This document shows positions 1,826 through 20,207 of a stretch of 25,656 nt of DNA, piece by piece. The DNA comes from a virus: IMG/VR virus record IMGVR_UViG_3300019093_000003, positions 1 through 25,656 of that record, one strand, 5' to 3'. The notes under the pieces are model-generated. The model had not been told where the DNA came from. It saw only the letters and a program-made list of their open reading frames with translations, and did no database searches. The position numbers and the translations under genes are program-made. Position 1 is the stretch's first letter. Each line of letters begins with the position of its first letter.

Positions 1826-4800
1826 ATGGGATACACTGTCAACATATATGAAACCACTAATGGGGTTAATGTCAGCGCAAGTGGAACAAATGTAAATATC
1901 ACCACTAGCACTAATCCTATTACTATCAGTTATAATGCCCTTGAACTGGATGGTGTTAATATAACCAATGCCAATGTAAATGCATCGGGCAATTTAATAT
2001 TAACTCTAAGTAATAGTGCAGTGATCAACGCAGGTCGCGTAACAGGAAACACCGGCGCTACAGGTGCTACAGGCGCAAATGGTGCTACAGGATCCAATGG
2101 TATTAGTGTGACTAACAGTAATATCAATGCCAGCGGCAATTTGATCTTTACCTATAGCAATTCTGCCACAACAAACGCAGGTAATATTAGATATATTATC
2201 AGTCAAGAAGTCAGCAATGTGGCCAATGCAGGTGTAACCAGTATTAATGGATTGACTGGCGTAGTTACATTGACCACTGCCAATATTGCCGAATCTGGAA
2301 ATCAATATTTTACCAATGCTAGAGCAAGAACTGCCATCACAGTGACTGGTGATGGCAGTTACGACAACGCAACTGGTCAAATTAACATAAACACATATGG
2401 CAACACCAACGTAGCGGCCTATTTGCCCACATACGCAGGTGCATTGACCGCTAGCAGTTTAACCACCACAGGAGCAGTTACAATTGGTGGTAATTTAACT
2501 GTTAATGGCAATATTACCACAATCAATGCCAACGTAATCACAGTAAATGATAAAAATATTGTTGTGGCCAATAATCAATCTACCAGCGCAGGCATCGATG
2601 GATCAGGTATCGACGCAGGCGGCGGAACACCTATAGCCACTTGGAGATATAATAATGCCACAACCAGTTGGCAAAGCAACATTGCAATTACTCCAGCAGC
2701 CAACGCCACAAGCAACATGGGTGGCACTTCGAATTATTGGAAAGATGTTTATGCTGCTAACATTAATGCAGTAACATTAACCGGCACTATCCAAACCGCC
2801 GCGCAAACCAATATTACAAGTCTAGGCACACTGTCTGGTTTAACTTTATCTGGCACTTTGAATGGAACCACATTACAAGCAGCCACGATAGGTAATCTAA
2901 ATGCCCAATTTACAGGTAATGGTCGCAATTTGACCAGCCTAACAGGAGCCAACGTAAGCGGCACAGTGGCCAATGCCACTTATGCCACACAAGCAGCGCA
3001 GGCCAACAATGCCAACTTGGCCACAACTGCAACCTATGTGACTGGTTTAACCAGTGCTAACGTAACCACAGCATTGGGCTTTGTTCCTGCAGATAGTAAC
3101 AGTGCCAGTAATTATGGCAATGCCAACGTAGCAGCCTATTTGCCAACCTACAGCGGTAATTTAAACAGTGTAACTGCTATCCCAGGTGCTGCTGTTACAG
3201 GCACAGTGGCCAACGCCAGTTATTCTTTACAATCTGGTCAAGCAAATAATGCCAATGCTGCTACAACAGCAACAACTGCAACCTACGTGACTGGTTTAAC
3301 CAGCGCCAATGTAACCACAGCATTGGGCTTTGTTCCTGCAGATAGTAACAGTGCCAGTAATTATGGCAATGCTAACGTGGCCAGTTATCTACCTACCTAT
3401 ACTGGTAATATCGGCGCCAATATTGCCGGTTCATCTCCCTTTATAACAGCCACTGGTACAAATGCAAACGTGACAATTAATCCCAATGGCCTAGGTAGTC
3501 TAGTATTAAATGCCCCATTGATAGCATCCGGCAATGTAACTGCCAGTTACTTTATCGGCAATGGTTCATTATTGACCAACTTGCCAGTGCAGCCAGGCAC
3601 TTATTCTAATGTAAATGTAGCAGCCTATTTGCCAACCTATACAGGCAACGTTGGTGCTGGCAACGTTGTTACAACTGGCGGGTCAGTTATCAACAGCAAC
3701 GTTGCTACTGGTAACATAAACATTTCAGGCAGTGGTGTTGTATACACACCCACAGTGCAGGCTACCACTTCGGCTGGCGGCGCATTAAAGAATGCCACTG
3801 GCACCACACAAGCAGCCTGGGGCGCAGGCGGTGGAGACAACTTTACTATCAGCGTCAGCACCAATCTAACAGGAGCAAATGCTCAAGTGGATATCAGTCC
3901 CACTGGCACTGGACATGTTCATATCAAACCCACTGGCACAGGTAGCGTGGAAATAGCACCCACCAACGTGGGCAGCATGAACAACATGACCATTGGCAAT
4001 GTGACACCACAAGCCGCAAACGTGACTGCCTTGGGTGCCAGCGGCAATGTAACTGCCAGTTACTTTATCGGCAATGGAAGTCAATTGACTGGTATTACTG
4101 CTATATCCAATTATAATGACACCAACGTGGCAGCCTATTTGCCCACGTATTCTGGCAACCTGGGTGGCACTTTGACCACTGCCGCACAAACCAATATCAC
4201 AAGAGTGGGTAATTTGACCACAGCCAATGTGACAGGCAGTGTGTTGGCTTTTGGTAATGTTGGCAATCAATATTTTATTGGACACAGTATCAATAACACA
4301 TTTGCCAATACTGCCACATACAGCGATGTAAAAATTGCCGGTTGGCAATACAGTAGTCCCACAGGCACCAACGTGGCCGCCGCAGCCATGTCCTTGACTG
4401 GTAATATTCAATTGACCAGAACCAACGACAACACCAATGCCCGTGTTCGACCCCTAGTAATCACTGGATTGTTTGATGCTAACGGTTTTAGTAGCAGTAT
4501 AGGTATCAGTCCGTTCAGTAACAGTGGCAGTGACACCAACTTGGTAGTGGGTATCAGTCGCATGCCAGCCGTGGTTCAGCAATTTAACATAGTTAACAGT
4601 CAAGCAACCGCAGTTAATATCAGTTCTGCAGGCGGTATGGTTACCACTGCTGGTATTTCGGCTACCAATCAACGTGCCAACGTGAACTACATGGTAGGCC
4701 AAACTGTGGAAGTGGGTTTATTTGCCAATGATACAACCAGTAGAATCATCAACGCCACAGCCTATAGAGCAGATTTTGCCACTTTGACCAGCAACACTGC

Positions 4801-5227
4801 CAACGTGGGCAATCGTATTGCTTTCGAATGCGTTGACAGCACTGCCAACATCAAGATTGCTGGTAACATTGTTTCTACCACTGGCGCGGTTGTTGCTCCA
4901 CGTGTGACTATACAAGGATTTACTGAAACATTAGTTGCACTAGGCAATACCTCTGGTACATTTGCACCCAATTTGGCCAATGGCACTATACAAACGTTGA
5001 CCTTGACTGGTAACCTAACATTCGATGCATTTACTAGTCCTGTTACAGGTCAAAGTGGAACATTTGTTTTGACACAGGATGGCACTGGTAATCGAACATT
5101 ATCTAGCACCATGAAATTTGCAGGTGGCTATAAAACATTAAGCAATAGCGCCGCGGCAATAGATCTAATGACTGTGTTCTATGATGGAACCAATTATTAC
5201 GCAAGTTTAACCACAGGATATGCATAA
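1826..5227 (+). CDS. Long tail fibre protein with collagen-like segment and repeats, 1133 aa
   Basis: ATG at 1826 is preceded by AGGAGCATAAA. Residues about 72-92 form a short collagen-like run of Gly-x-y triplets (GATGATGANGATGSNG), a common phage-fibre trimerisation element. The middle contains fibre repeats with the motifs TTALGFVPA, YGNANVAAYLPTY and FIGNGSxLT. One block is duplicated at about 249-bp spacing (3023-3140 and 3272-3389). Composition is dominated by Asn, Thr, Gly, Ala and Val with no Cys in the repeats, as expected of a beta-helical, trimeric fibre. The C-terminal part (from about residue 1030) is a compact, non-repetitive domain ending MTVFYDGTNYYASLTTGYA. No S74-type chaperone motif is seen. 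The stop overlaps the next start (TAATG), so it is translationally coupled to the glycine-rich adhesin. Likely the main side or tip fibre. Confidence 0.88.
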   Translation: MGYTVNIYETTNGVNVSASGTNVNITTSTNPITISYNALELDGVNITNANVNASGNLILTLSNSAVINAGRVTGNTGATGATGANGATGSNGISVTNSNINASGNLIFTYSNSATTNAGNIRYIISQEVSNVANAGVTSINGLTGVVTLTTANIAESGNQYFTNARARTAITVTGDGSYDNATGQININTYGNTNVAAYLPTYAGALTASSLTTTGAVTIGGNLTVNGNITTINANVITVNDKNIVVANNQSTSAGIDGSGIDAGGGTPIATWRYNNATTSWQSNIAITPAANATSNMGGTSNYWKDVYAANINAVTLTGTIQTAAQTNITSLGTLSGLTLSGTLNGTTLQAATIGNLNAQFTGNGRNLTSLTGANVSGTVANATYATQAAQANNANLATTATYVTGLTSANVTTALGFVPADSNSASNYGNANVAAYLPTYSGNLNSVTAIPGAAVTGTVANASYSLQSGQANNANAATTATTATYVTGLTSANVTTALGFVPADSNSASNYGNANVASYLPTYTGNIGANIAGSSPFITATGTNANVTINPNGLGSLVLNAPLIASGNVTASYFIGNGSLLTNLPVQPGTYSNVNVAAYLPTYTGNVGAGNVVTTGGSVINSNVATGNINISGSGVVYTPTVQATTSAGGALKNATGTTQAAWGAGGGDNFTISVSTNLTGANAQVDISPTGTGHVHIKPTGTGSVEIAPTNVGSMNNMTIGNVTPQAANVTALGASGNVTASYFIGNGSQLTGITAISNYNDTNVAAYLPTYSGNLGGTLTTAAQTNITRVGNLTTANVTGSVLAFGNVGNQYFIGHSINNTFANTATYSDVKIAGWQYSSPTGTNVAAAAMSLTGNIQLTRTNDNTNARVRPLVITGLFDANGFSSSIGISPFSNSGSDTNLVVGISRMPAVVQQFNIVNSQATAVNISSAGGMVTTAGISATNQRANVNYMVGQTVEVGLFANDTTSRIINATAYRADFATLTSNTANVGNRIAFECVDSTANIKIAGNIVSTTGAVVAPRVTIQGFTETLVALGNTSGTFAPNLANGTIQTLTLTGNLTFDAFTSPVTGQSGTFVLTQDGTGNRTLSSTMKFAGGYKTLSNSAAAIDLMTVFYDGTNYYASLTTGYA
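3023..3389 (+). repeat. Near-identical ~115-bp direct repeats inside the fibre gene (period 249 bp)
   Basis: The segment starting at 3023 (ACAACTGCAACCTATGTGAC) recurs at 3272 with only a few third-position changes. It encodes two copies of a block containing LTSANVTTALGFVPA and NSASNYGNANVA. A second, shorter repeat (GGCAATGTAACTGCCAG and following bases) occurs near 3531 and 4042 and encodes the FIGNGS motif. These look like internal fibre-repeat duplications. Confidence 0.8.
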
Positions 5228-8848: not shown

Positions 8849-8876
8849 TTGCAAATGCTGTGGCCCAGTGTATAAT
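8849..8876 (+). promoter_or_regulatory. Sigma70-like promoter upstream of the 269-aa gene and packaging operon
   Basis: TTGCAA (8849-8854), a 16-base spacer and a perfect TATAAT (8871-8876). It immediately follows the terminator T-tract and is the only promoter I see upstream of the terminase/head operon. The -35 box is weaker than in the other two promoters, leaving room for activation. Confidence 0.65.
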
Positions 8877-8999: not shown

Positions 9000-9809
9000 A
9001 TGAACTACACCACACAAGAAATCATGGCCCACGTCGTGGCCACAAGAACTGAATCAACCCATGAAAACACAGTCAAGGCGCGAGAACTAACATCTCGCGA
9101 AAACCCCGAAAAACCCTGGGGGGCGCGAGAAGTATATAAAGATAAAAATATAAAAATAAACAAAGATATTTCTCGCGCAGAGCATCTGAGCGAAGAAACG
9201 GAGAGAATTTTGCCTTCGGCACCTATTGGCCAGACTTCGTCAGAAACAGCCAGCCCAGAGGGCTTGGGAGAAAGCCACAAGGCACAAGGGTTAGTTGTAG
9301 ACCCCGCGCAAACTAGTTCTCGCGCCTACACGGGCATAGCAGCCTATCACGTGAAAACTGCACGTGGCGTCAAAATCAAATTAACTGTGCAGACGGCCCA
9401 GGATAGCCACATGGGTGCAGTGGTAGAACTCACAGCCGAATTGAAACATCGCAAACGTTTTAGGGAGATAAAATCCTATGAAGGCGATAATCCCCAATTT
9501 CAACAGTTTGTAGAGTCAGCACGAGAACACTATCGACAGGAATCTGACGACTATTGGATGGGCCGTGTGCATAGATCCGGCACTAGAAGTGCGTGGTTTG
9601 CAGATGTTTTGGTCATTGCATATGGCACGCAAAAGCATATTGATTGGCTGCAGATATGGTTTGACGAAGACAACTACACTGTGATCATGAATCATGAATT
9701 ATCTGCCAATCAAGCCCAATGGTATCACACCGGTGGTCGCCATGGCAATCTAGTGCGCCGCAGACAGGTGCCCAGCATGGCCACAGCAGAAAGAACTTTG
9801 TTCACTTGA
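9000..9809 (+). CDS. Unrecognised 269-aa protein upstream of small terminase
   Basis: I chose ATG 9000 (MNYTTQEIMAHVV) because GAGAGGA lies just upstream. The frame also extends to a GTG at 8931 without a matching site. The first ~115 residues are charged and of low complexity, rich in Glu/Arg/Lys/Ser, and contain repeated ARE, SRE and SRA tripeptides that reflect DNA repeats in this stretch. Residues about 115-269 look like an ordered domain (YHVKTARGVKIKLTVQT, DYWMGRVHRSGTRSAWFADV, HIDWLQIWFDEDNYTV). I do not recognise the family. The gene holds an inverted-repeat cluster with an AT-rich spacer (9078-9325), the arrangement seen when an origin lies inside an initiator gene (as in lambda O) or when a packaging site precedes terminase. 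Replication initiator or packaging-associated protein are both hypotheses only. Confidence 0.7.
   Translation: MNYTTQEIMAHVVATRTESTHENTVKARELTSRENPEKPWGAREVYKDKNIKINKDISRAEHLSEETERILPSAPIGQTSSETASPEGLGESHKAQGLVVDPAQTSSRAYTGIAAYHVKTARGVKIKLTVQTAQDSHMGAVVELTAELKHRKRFREIKSYEGDNPQFQQFVESAREHYRQESDDYWMGRVHRSGTRSAWFADVLVIAYGTQKHIDWLQIWFDEDNYTVIMNHELSANQAQWYHTGGRHGNLVRRRQVPSMATAERTLFT
9078..9325. repeat. Cluster of five CGCGAGA/TCTCGCG boxes flanking an AT-rich segment (candidate origin or packaging site)
   Basis: Boxes lie at 9079-9085 (CGCGAGA), 9093-9099 (TCTCGCG), 9124-9130 (CGCGAGA), 9171-9177 (TCTCGCG) and 9318-9324 (TCTCGCG). Four extend to the 9-mer GCGCGAGAA or its complement. The first two form an inverted repeat with a 7-base gap. 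The third and fourth form a perfect 9-bp inverted repeat (9123-9131 / 9170-9178) around 38 bases with only four G/C. By eye only one other CGCGAGA occurs in the rest of the window, near 20137. Confidence 0.75.
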
Positions 9810-10003: not shown

Positions 10004-10447
10004 ATGACCGATAAAACATTAGAAGAACAAGATCTAGAACTAGTAGATAGCCAAGAACCTCTGCAAGAGATCGAACACAAATGGGAATACGCACAAAGAC
10101 AACAACGCAAATGGGGCACAGTGACCCGCGAGGGCTTGATTGTGGGCCGAGGCCAGCGACGCCGCATAGTACCACCCGATGAAGTGTATCGATTGGGTGC
10201 ATTGGGCTGCACAGATAGAGAAATTGCCACGTGGTTTGGCATCGATGAACAGACTCTGCGTTATAATTTTAAGGAATACCTAGCAAAAGCCCGCGAAGAC
10301 ATTAAGCAACGTCTACGTCAGGCCATGCTGAAAAATGCCCTAGGTGGCAATGCAGTCATGCAGATATTCTTGGCCAAGAATCTGCTGGGCATGAGCGATA
10401 ATCCTCAATCCTCGGACTCGGATCGCATATTGCCTTGGACTGATTGA
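10004..10447 (+). CDS. terS: Terminase small subunit, 147 aa
   Basis: ATG 10004 has GAGGT upstream. After a charged N-terminal region, residues about 58-95 hold a helix-turn-helix-like segment (YRLGALGCTDREIATWFGID followed by TLRYNFKEYL). A helical oligomerisation stretch (KAREDIKQRLRQAMLKNAL) and a C-terminal tail (NLLGMSDNP) come next. This is the usual layout of small terminases, which bind the packaging site and load the motor. Its stop overlaps the large terminase start (TGATG), which supports the call. The family is recognised from layout and context rather than from a strict motif. Confidence 0.88.
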   Translation: MTDKTLEEQDLELVDSQEPLQEIEHKWEYAQRQQRKWGTVTREGLIVGRGQRRRIVPPDEVYRLGALGCTDREIATWFGIDEQTLRYNFKEYLAKAREDIKQRLRQAMLKNALGGNAVMQIFLAKNLLGMSDNPQSSDSDRILPWTD

Positions 10448-11685
10448 TGCCATTAAATGCAGGACAGCAGGCAGTGGGCTCGAGCCTGGCTAGATTTAGA
10501 GTAGTTATTGCAGGTCGCCGTTGGGGCAAAACCTATCTCAGTATTCGAGAACTGGCCAGAGCAGCACGTGAACCCAACAAGAGATGTTTCTACGTGGCGC
10601 CAACCTATCGACAGGCCAAACAGATTGTATGGGATCCACTAAAACATCGACTGCAAGATCTCAATTGGATCCATGCAGTTAACGAAAGTGATCTCACTAT
10701 TCGATTAAAAAATAATAGTCGCATCAGTCTACGTGGAGCAGACAATCCAGATAGTCTGCGTGGAGTGGGCTTGGACATGATAGTAATGGATGAATTCGCC
10801 ATGATCGACAGTCGTTCATGGACAGAAGTCTTGCGTCCAACATTGAGTGATAGACAGGGTCGTGCCATGTTTATCAGCACTCCCATGGGACAGGGCAATT
10901 GGGCATATGATCTCTATCAAAAAGGTCTAGACAGCACAGAACATCAATGGGAAAGTTTTCATTATACTACTATTCAAGGCGGCAACGTGCCCCAAGAAGA
11001 AATAGATGCAGCAAGACGAGATCTAGATGCTAGAACTTTTCGCCAAGAATACGAAGCCAGTTGGGAACAGTATGCCAATAGAATCTATTATGCATTCGAT
11101 CGCCAACACAACATGCAAGCATATGCTCATGAACAGCCACACACTGTGTATATAGGCATGGACTTTAACATTGATCCCATGAGCGCGGTAATTTTTGCAC
11201 AACAAGGAAACACAATACATGCAATCGACGAAATCGAAATCTACAGCAGTAATACTGATGAAATGGTGCGAGAGATCAAAACGAGATATGCAGGCACCAA
11301 AATATTTGTGTATCCAGACCCAGCAGCAAGGCAAAGAAAAACTTCGGCGGCCAGCGGCGTTACTGACCTCACCATCCTCAGCAATGCAGGATTCATTGTG
11401 AAAGCACCCTCGGCGCACAACCCCATCAGAGACGGAATAAATTCGGTAAATAGTATGTTGTGCAATAGCCTAGGAGAGCGACGGTTTTTTGTGGATCCCA
11501 AATGCAAAAAAGTCATCCAAGCCATGGAGAAATTCTCATACAAAGAAGGCACAAGCCAACCAGACAAGGACTCAGGATTTGACCATATGGCAGACGCGAT
11601 AAGATATTATATCGATTATGTTTTTCCGGTGCGTCGCCAAGTTGATGAACAACCCCCGCAACGTTGGGGACATAGAGTAGGATAA
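10447..11685 (+). CDS. terL: Terminase large subunit (ATPase-nuclease), 412 aa
   Basis: I use ATG 10447, overlapping the small terminase stop by one base; a TTG one codon upstream is possible. Walker A is GRRWGKT (residues 23-29) and Walker B is MIVMDEFA with D115/E116. The C-terminal RNase H-like nuclease has the expected acidic residues: D239 in YIGMDFNIDP, D291 in VYPDPAA, and D379/D383 in GFDHMADAIRYY. Length is typical of compact large terminases. It powers DNA translocation through the portal and cuts concatemers. It is followed four bases later by the portal gene. Confidence 0.96.
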   Translation: MPLNAGQQAVGSSLARFRVVIAGRRWGKTYLSIRELARAAREPNKRCFYVAPTYRQAKQIVWDPLKHRLQDLNWIHAVNESDLTIRLKNNSRISLRGADNPDSLRGVGLDMIVMDEFAMIDSRSWTEVLRPTLSDRQGRAMFISTPMGQGNWAYDLYQKGLDSTEHQWESFHYTTIQGGNVPQEEIDAARRDLDARTFRQEYEASWEQYANRIYYAFDRQHNMQAYAHEQPHTVYIGMDFNIDPMSAVIFAQQGNTIHAIDEIEIYSSNTDEMVREIKTRYAGTKIFVYPDPAARQRKTSAASGVTDLTILSNAGFIVKAPSAHNPIRDGINSVNSMLCNSLGERRFFVDPKCKKVIQAMEKFSYKEGTSQPDKDSGFDHMADAIRYYIDYVFPVRRQVDEQPPQRWGHRVG

Positions 11686-17861: not shown

Positions 17862-20207
17862 ATGGCCAGTATTAAAACAGTATTAGAAATCGACAACAGC
17901 AAATATATTGCTGGTTTAAAACAGGCCGCAGATGCTACTAAATCATTCGGCCGAGATCTAGGCACACAAAGTACCAATATAATCGGTGCATTCGGCGCCA
18001 TGGGATTGAGTGCAGGTGCACTTGGCGCTGTTCTAACAGGATTATCTGTCAGCACTGCGCATTTTGCAGATCAGATCACCGATTTGGCCACTGCGCATCA
18101 GACCACCATAGGCGAAGTATTGGCATTAAGCAAGGCCCTTGCACAGAACGGTGGCAGTGCAGATCAAACAGGTCGCATGATGCAGACTTTGGCCAATAAT
18201 ATGGATGCTGTCAACAATGGCAATTTAAAATTATATAATACTTTTGCCAACCTAGGAGTCAGCATGAATGACCTAGGCTCACTGAGTGAATCACAAATAC
18301 GCAATAAATTGATTGCTGGTATTGCAGCAATTCAGGATCCTGCTACTCGTGCGGCCAAGGCAGTAGAAATATTTGGCAAGGCGGCTGTGGGAGTGGATTT
18401 TACCAATCTAGCAGCCAGCATTGCAGCCAACAATGTCAAATACGCAGAACATGATGCGGCAGTTCGCAGTGCTGCCCAAGCATATGACAGTATTCAAAGT
18501 GCTTTGACTGACATTAAAATTGCATTTGCCGAAGCATTTAAACCATTTTTTGATGTAATAGGTCGTCTCAAGATCGATATCGATGGTGCCGCCGCAGGAT
18601 TTAAAGTATTAGCAATAGGCATAGCCGCAGTGACCAGTGCCGCCGCAATCGCTGGTGCCTATAAACTGGTAACAGCATTTCAAGCATTAAAATTAGCAGT
18701 AGTAACCAACCCAATTGGCGCTGTTGCCACAGTATTATTAACTGCTGGTGCAGCCTTTGGTATATTGTCAACTAAAACAGACGAAGCCACTGCAGCCACA
18801 GAAAATAACACCGACGCCGCGCAAAAAAATATTGAAATCAAAAGAGATCAAGCAGAGTTGGGCATTGCATTACAAAAAGAAGTGGAAGGTCTGCAGAAGA
18901 TTACTAGTGCTTATGTAAAACAGAATGAAACTATACAGAAGAAACTGAATCTCGAATTGGCCAGTCTGGGTCAAACAGAAGAACAAAAACGTATTAGTCA
19001 ACAGGTGGCTGATATTGAAACCAGTCGTGAAAAGTCACTGTTAGATCTCAAGAATCAATATAACACATTGGATGCTGATGGTCGAGCAAGAACATCAAGT
19101 GAATATCAAAAACAACAAGAAATCATAAAACAAAATGCTGATATAGAAATCAATGCAGCAACACAACAAATTCGATTGATTGAACAAAGACGTCGAGCAT
19201 ATGAAGATATTGTGGGCGGATTGAAAATCTTTAGTGAAGCAGAAGTTAAATTGTTCAAGAGTCTGCAGGATCGTGTGCCTGTGGGTGCAAGGCAACAGAT
19301 TGCGCAAGAAGAATTAGTCAATGCGGCGATCGAAAAACGTCGAATATTGATCGATGAAATTAACAAACAAAAACTAAGCCCACAACTAGGCAGCATGGCC
19401 GATTCAGTGCTAGAACCTAGTATCGAAGCAGCCAGGAAGAGTTTTCAAGATACTGTTAATCAATTGAGACAAATGAATCGAGGAGAATTACAACCTCAAA
19501 TTGTTGCTCTTATTAGTGCAACACAAAAACAATTGGAAGCAACAGATACCGCGGCCCAGGCATTGATACGTATTAGACAACAAGTGCTAGATACACAACG
19601 TACATTCAGTTATGGCTGGGAAAAGGCCTATACTGATTATTTGGATCAAACTAGAAATTTTGCATCCACTGCTTCTACATTGTTTAATAAATTTACTACA
19701 GGGCTAGAAGATGCATTTGTAAAATTTGCCAAAACAGGCAAATTGACATTCAAGGATCTAGTCAACACCATGGTAGAAGAATTGTTAAGAGCACAAATTC
19801 GACAATTGATTGCCAACATGTTCCCCACAGGGGGAGGTGGGGGAGGTGGCCTGGCTGGTATCTTGGGTGGCCTTATAGGCGGCGGATCTAGATCTCAACC
19901 GCAACAAAATTCAGGTGGTGGCATTCTAGATAGCCTATTCAATGGTGTAAAAAGTATATTTGGTTTTGCCAATGGCGGTTATCCACCCATGGGACAACCA
20001 TATATAGTAGGTGAAAACGGGCCTGAATTGCGTGTGGACAGCACAGCAGGACAAATTATACCATTAAATGGGCTAGGCACCAATGTGACTTATAATATCA
20101 ATGCTGTGGATGCAGCCAGTTTTCAAGCGTTAGTGGCGCGAGATCCCGGTTTTATCTATGCAGTCTCAGAACAAGGCCGTCGTAGCCTACCAGGAACAAG
20201 AAGGTAA
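17862..20207 (+). CDS. Tape measure protein, lambda-type, 781 aa
   Basis: ATG 17862 follows the previous stop by one base. The longest tail-module protein upstream of the hub genes, it is largely helical. It has hydrophobic segments at about residues 38-68 (GAFGAMGLSAGALGAVLTGL) and 247-305 (LAIGIAAVTSAAAIAGAYK), then a long charged coiled coil (about 310-600). Residues about 609-653 (FTTGLEDAFVKFAKTGKLTF, then KDLVNTMVEELLRAQIRQLI) match the C-terminal domain of lambda gpH-type tape measures. A glycine-rich run and a tail (NGGYPPMGQPYIVGENGPEL) follow. It sets tail length; at about 0.15 nm per residue, 781 aa suggests a tail of roughly 115-120 nm. Confidence 0.95.
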   Translation: MASIKTVLEIDNSKYIAGLKQAADATKSFGRDLGTQSTNIIGAFGAMGLSAGALGAVLTGLSVSTAHFADQITDLATAHQTTIGEVLALSKALAQNGGSADQTGRMMQTLANNMDAVNNGNLKLYNTFANLGVSMNDLGSLSESQIRNKLIAGIAAIQDPATRAAKAVEIFGKAAVGVDFTNLAASIAANNVKYAEHDAAVRSAAQAYDSIQSALTDIKIAFAEAFKPFFDVIGRLKIDIDGAAAGFKVLAIGIAAVTSAAAIAGAYKLVTAFQALKLAVVTNPIGAVATVLLTAGAAFGILSTKTDEATAATENNTDAAQKNIEIKRDQAELGIALQKEVEGLQKITSAYVKQNETIQKKLNLELASLGQTEEQKRISQQVADIETSREKSLLDLKNQYNTLDADGRARTSSEYQKQQEIIKQNADIEINAATQQIRLIEQRRRAYEDIVGGLKIFSEAEVKLFKSLQDRVPVGARQQIAQEELVNAAIEKRRILIDEINKQKLSPQLGSMADSVLEPSIEAARKSFQDTVNQLRQMNRGELQPQIVALISATQKQLEATDTAAQALIRIRQQVLDTQRTFSYGWEKAYTDYLDQTRNFASTASTLFNKFTTGLEDAFVKFAKTGKLTFKDLVNTMVEELLRAQIRQLIANMFPTGGGGGGGLAGILGGLIGGGSRSQPQQNSGGGILDSLFNGVKSIFGFANGGYPPMGQPYIVGENGPELRVDSTAGQIIPLNGLGTNVTYNINAVDAASFQALVARDPGFIYAVSEQGRRSLPGTRR

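Follow-up and report, generated by a model that had tools for sequence, protein, structure and literature searches.

The question raised by this locus is why several copies of one short DNA box should be crowded into the coding sequence of a single gene in an uncultured phage from water. The window, meaning the whole stretch of DNA that was analysed, is an unclosed virus record of 25,656 bp from a tailed phage, and its tail, small terminase (10004-10447), large terminase (10444-11685), portal and capsid genes all run in the same direction. The best relatives of the large terminase are on freshwater and marine IMG/VR contigs (72%), while those of phage DSL-LC06 and of the HTVC111P pelagiphage group are about 50% identical to it. 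The box-bearing gene (9000-9809, plus strand) is an open reading frame with a ribosome site (GAGAGGAA) and two homologues, and specifies an orphan protein of 269 aa, a putative and probable origin-binding initiator. Upstream of it is a promoter-like site, TTGCAA-16-TATAAT (8849-8876, plus strand), recognized by consensus match only. We judge it reasonably probable that 9076-9327 acts in cis as a DNA site, most likely a replication origin, located where the gene of its own initiator encodes a linker.

The box cluster and its gene

Five CGCGAGA/TCTCGCG boxes occur within the gene, starting at 9079 (+), 9093 (-), 9124 (+), 9171 (-) and 9318 (-), and together they span 9079-9324. The preliminary description had counted five within 250 bp and one other copy, and all of these positions were confirmed, the sixth box being at 20137, outside the gene; shuffled sequences gave an expectation of 0.91 per window, against the six observed. 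Also borne out by direct reading were the 9-bp inverted pair GCGCGAGAA (9123-9131) and TTCTCGCGC (9170-9178), with a 38-bp spacer that is A+T at 34 of 38 positions, and the inverted pair formed by the boxes at 9079 and 9093, with a gap of 7 bp. Two features had been missed. One is a perfect outer inverted pair of 14 nt (9076-9089 and 9314-9327), formed by boxes 1 and 5, and the other is that the A+T core between boxes 3 and 4 (9131-9170; 90% A+T; encoding VYKDKNIKINKDI), a candidate DNA-unwinding element, is the least stable 40 bp in the entire window.

Four of the five boxes in the window agree across 12-13 bases, and the 15 boxes of three genomes (see below) gave the consensus (G/T)CGCGAGAA(C/G)TA. 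Box 1 (9076-9089, plus strand), AGGCGCGAGAACTA, is the left arm of the outer inverted repeat, and its CGCGAGAA is invariant in the three genomes, as is ATCTCGCG in box 2 (9089-9101, minus strand, core 9093-9099), the box with the most divergent flanks. Boxes 3 and 4 are an inverted pair that encloses the A+T core: box 3 (9122-9134, plus strand), GGCGCGAGAAGTA, forms its left edge, with CGCGAGAAG invariant in all three, and box 4 (9167-9179, minus strand, core 9171-9177) forms its right edge, with TTTCTCGC invariant except that one relative, G014, is without the last base. The right arm of the outer repeat is box 5 (9314-9327, minus strand, core 9318-9324), which is kept in the other relative, G019, while G014 has a nearby box in the other orientation.

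The cluster is real and not a product of chance. Among 7-, 8- and 9-mers, no cluster in the window is more extreme (about 1e-13 per 250 bp, a value uncorrected for the search over k-mers and positions). When the gene was recoded 20,000 times with the codon usage of the phage, the maximum was three boxes, and when synonymous codons were permuted within the gene, also 20,000 times, five boxes arose once. A literature search found no paper that names a CGCGAGA box.

Residues 20-109 of the protein, which hold the boxes, look like a flexible linker, and residues 110-269 are more ordinary and probably folded. The stretch encoded by the box segment has a low order-promoting composition, as would be expected of a linker able to carry a DNA signal. 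Many phage replication genes may encode K/D/N/I-rich runs beside SRARE-like peptides, a possible parallel that was not used in this assessment. No significant relative of the protein was found in family libraries, phage records, plasmid records or the PDB, no match by tblastn in phages or in 72,556 plasmids, and no recognizable DNA-binding domain within it. Single-sequence structure predictions (pLDDT 37 and 40) were too poor for fold searches. A three-protein profile gave a weak, non-significant match (E 0.05) of residues ~168-246, in the C-terminal part, to PDB 9x91, an inhibitor of type II CRISPR-Cas.

Conservation in two distant relatives

Homologues were found by searching the whole records of large-terminase relatives. 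Two are full-length, in G019 (29,190 bp; L158; 46% identity) and G014 (28,637 bp; L159; 37%), and encode proteins of 253 and 270 aa, respectively. None was found in 49 further records, and the gene is known from three genomes only. A seed-based search of the collection returned nothing, whether started from the full-length protein or from the C-terminal part, because the 8-residue seeds are not conserved in the homologues.

Both homologous genes carry exactly five boxes, and there is none elsewhere in either 29-kb genome; the expectation is about 0.5-0.7 per genome. In G019 their order and orientation (+ - + - -) are those of the window. In G014 there are + - + boxes before the core, but box 4 has degenerated to TCTCGCT and is joined by an additional + box, and box 5 is flipped. 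Both relatives retain the A+T core, at 81-85% A+T; in G014 it is less stable than any other 40 bp of the genome, and in G019 it ranks only about twelfth in instability. The preliminary description had offered an origin within the gene as a candidate, to be judged by whether the boxes persist in relatives that have the gene; they do in both, and the proposal is supported at the level of sequence.

Conservation of the boxes against that of the surrounding codons, a comparison also suggested at the outset, was measured by scoring identical residues for identical codons in the three genome pairs, and the codons of the box segment proved to be more conserved than the rest of the gene. For residues 20-113, the same codon was used at 27/38, 32/40 and 25/33 positions (71-80%), compared with 29/64, 18/49 and 31/60 (37-52%) for residues 114-269 (Fisher p 0.010, 4e-5 and 0.019). 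The excess persisted when the box codons were omitted (19/26, 22/30 and 18/22). As codon identity is raised outside the boxes too, the segment has been conserved as DNA in its own right, and not only for the protein it encodes. What is directly established is the presence of the boxes and the core, together with their DNA-level conservation within a homologous gene. Conservation at the DNA level in all three genomes extends to the block GCGAAGAAA (9190-9198), to TTGGCC, another invariant block, and to an invariant 16-nt block with a small palindrome, AGCCCAGAGGGCTTGG (9252-9267), that encodes SPEGL. The last is at ~1713-1728 in L158 and ~2056-2071 in L159 (minus strand), and may act as an additional protein or RNA signal within this site.

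Pattern scans across larger collections were less productive. IMG/VR was scanned with exact patterns for box pairs, inverted or direct, and both IMG/VR and GTDB genomes for pairs of boxes enclosing an A+T run, but the loci retrieved were all unrelated or due to chance; exact patterns would also miss true relatives, because the spacings differ in relatives. At one locus, L134, an inverted GCGCGAGA pair and an A+T core lie between a DUF5906 helicase gene and the small terminase, which is suggestive but may be chance, as it was one of only two matches. Within L134, at 10077-10333, an inverted ACGCGCGAGA pair surrounds the A+T core, with many flanking TGGCGTGGTT copies, before a small-terminase-like gene, and this looks like the origin or cos region of another phage. 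Separately, a dispersed A+T-rich hairpin element with CGCGAGAATTTTTAATTTATT ends was seen on many contigs (Prevotella MAG CAMHEA01; L139, L140, L142, L143, L147, L149, L150 and L153).

What the segment may do

The segment is conserved as DNA, it has copies of one box to either side of a core of low stability, and its gene keeps the boxes while its distance from the terminase genes changes. Together these features point to an origin recognized by the gene's own product, and a replication start at the boxes is probable because both distant relatives have retained these signals in this gene. We infer that the 269-aa protein is the box binder and that the core is melted there for replication to start with host enzymes. 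The protein would bind the 12-bp iteron (G/T)CGCGAGAA(C/G)TA at five sites, which flank the A+T core to left and right; once bound, it would fold the DNA and open the core, where the host helicase and polymerase would load. Five replication families (Phage_rep_O, DnaB, DnaC/IstB, DUF3987 and DNA_pol_A) had no match in the window, G014 or G019, although members of other replication families may have escaped this search, and the small ORFs scanned near the gene gave no such match either; host enzymes would then copy the DNA. Minima of GC and AT skew disagree between the genomes, and fall at the gene only for the A/T skew of G019.

The same conservation would be expected if the protein, or another phage regulator, bound the boxes as an operator cluster to control transcription of its own gene or region, with no replication start, and there is a promoter-like site 200 bp upstream. 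The boxes, however, would be oddly placed for this, being 80-325 bp inside the coding sequence and away from the promoter, and a highly unstable A+T core would be unneeded, so that an operator seems unlikely. A packaging site, cosB- or pac-like and bound by the small terminase, had been raised in the preliminary description from the location of the boxes 0.7-0.9 kb upstream of the small terminase gene. That distance holds in the window, where the gene starts 1.0 kb before the small terminase, but in G014 and G019 the gene starts 7-8 kb upstream of it and adjoins other genes, and no box is near the terminase. In position, the boxes are not tied to the small terminase gene; they follow the 269-aa gene, and this linkage weakens the packaging interpretation, which we regard as improbable.

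It is likewise improbable that the segment acts in the transcript, with boxes 1/5 and 3/4 pairing as nested stems of an RNA element that controls gene expression. The predicted fold is strong (z = -7.4), but a score of this size is fully explained by the boxes being inverted; covariation, assessed over three sequences, gives an unfavourable term (+3.67), and G014, while keeping five boxes, flips box 5 and degrades box 4, breaking the box 1/5 stem. No Rfam family matched the segment. Perfect 14-nt inverted ends and a length divisible by three (252 bp, 84 codons) would also suit an in-frame mobile mini-element, which we group with other kinds of DNA site (partition, recombination, methylation). 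Yet no second copy with the 14-nt ends was found in IMG/VR, and the segment is at the same place in three divergent homologues of different lengths, so it is not a recent insertion; explanations of this group appear very improbable. An origin within the gene of its own initiator is the reading carried forward here.

Comparison with known replication systems

The nearest terminase relatives have other probable replication genes, instead of the 269-aa gene, in the slot before the small terminase. In L009, a DEAD-helicase-like gene (phrog_2467; 3636-5111) occupies the slot between an HNH gene and the small terminase. L008 begins with the end of a DUF3987 gene (1-690), after which no long ORF occurs for about 1.4 kb, and in this ORF-free stretch before the small terminase is a 34-nt inverted repeat (766-889; 85% complementary, spacer 56 nt). 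The DnaD-like replication gene of HTVC111P-type pelagiphages is also comparable, as its carriers have a related large terminase and a similar genome size, but its product is annotated as a DnaD-domain protein, and neither the gene nor its surroundings contain a comparable cluster of boxes. To our knowledge, many small aquatic phages have no recognizable replication gene. The 269-aa protein may represent a new initiator family, sequence-unrelated to the known ones, with its own CGCGAGA-iteron origin in its gene, and may be the sole replication gene of ~29-kb aquatic phages that otherwise depend on host enzymes; we advance this wider proposal tentatively, at slightly less than even odds. If true, it would provide a concrete candidate initiator and origin for one lineage of small aquatic phages, and it suggests where such replicators might be sought, namely among orphan genes in which a low-complexity segment combines repeated DNA boxes with conserved codons.

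In iteron plasmid origins, the initiator binds an array of repeats that adjoins an A+T-rich region where the DNA opens (PMC5043065). The phage segment resembles those of the P1, F, RK2 and pSC101 type in having a repeat array beside an A+T-rich region, but differs in that the array is inside the gene, not next to it, and the repeats are not regularly phased direct repeats. In lambda, the origin lies within the O gene and has inverted iterons next to an A+T region of 40 bp (PMC5043065). The phage shares with lambda an origin, here a candidate one, within the coding sequence of a probable initiator, boxes in both orientations, and an adjoining A+T region of about 40 bp. In keeping with a lambda-type architecture, multiple copies of one box are present in the phage gene and conserved at the DNA level, and the easily melted region beside them is strong in two genomes and weaker in G019. 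Unlike those of lambda, the boxes are ~12 bp rather than 19 bp in length, and flank the A+T core on both sides; as far as we know, they share no sequence with the lambda boxes. The 269-aa protein matched neither the Phage_rep_O profile (PF04492) nor that of any other family. The best explanation by analogy is that the segment and protein would work like lambda ori and O without detectable homology to them, and if this is true, the lambda plan, with an origin in the linker of its initiator, also exists where neither the protein nor the boxes are detectably related to those of lambda.
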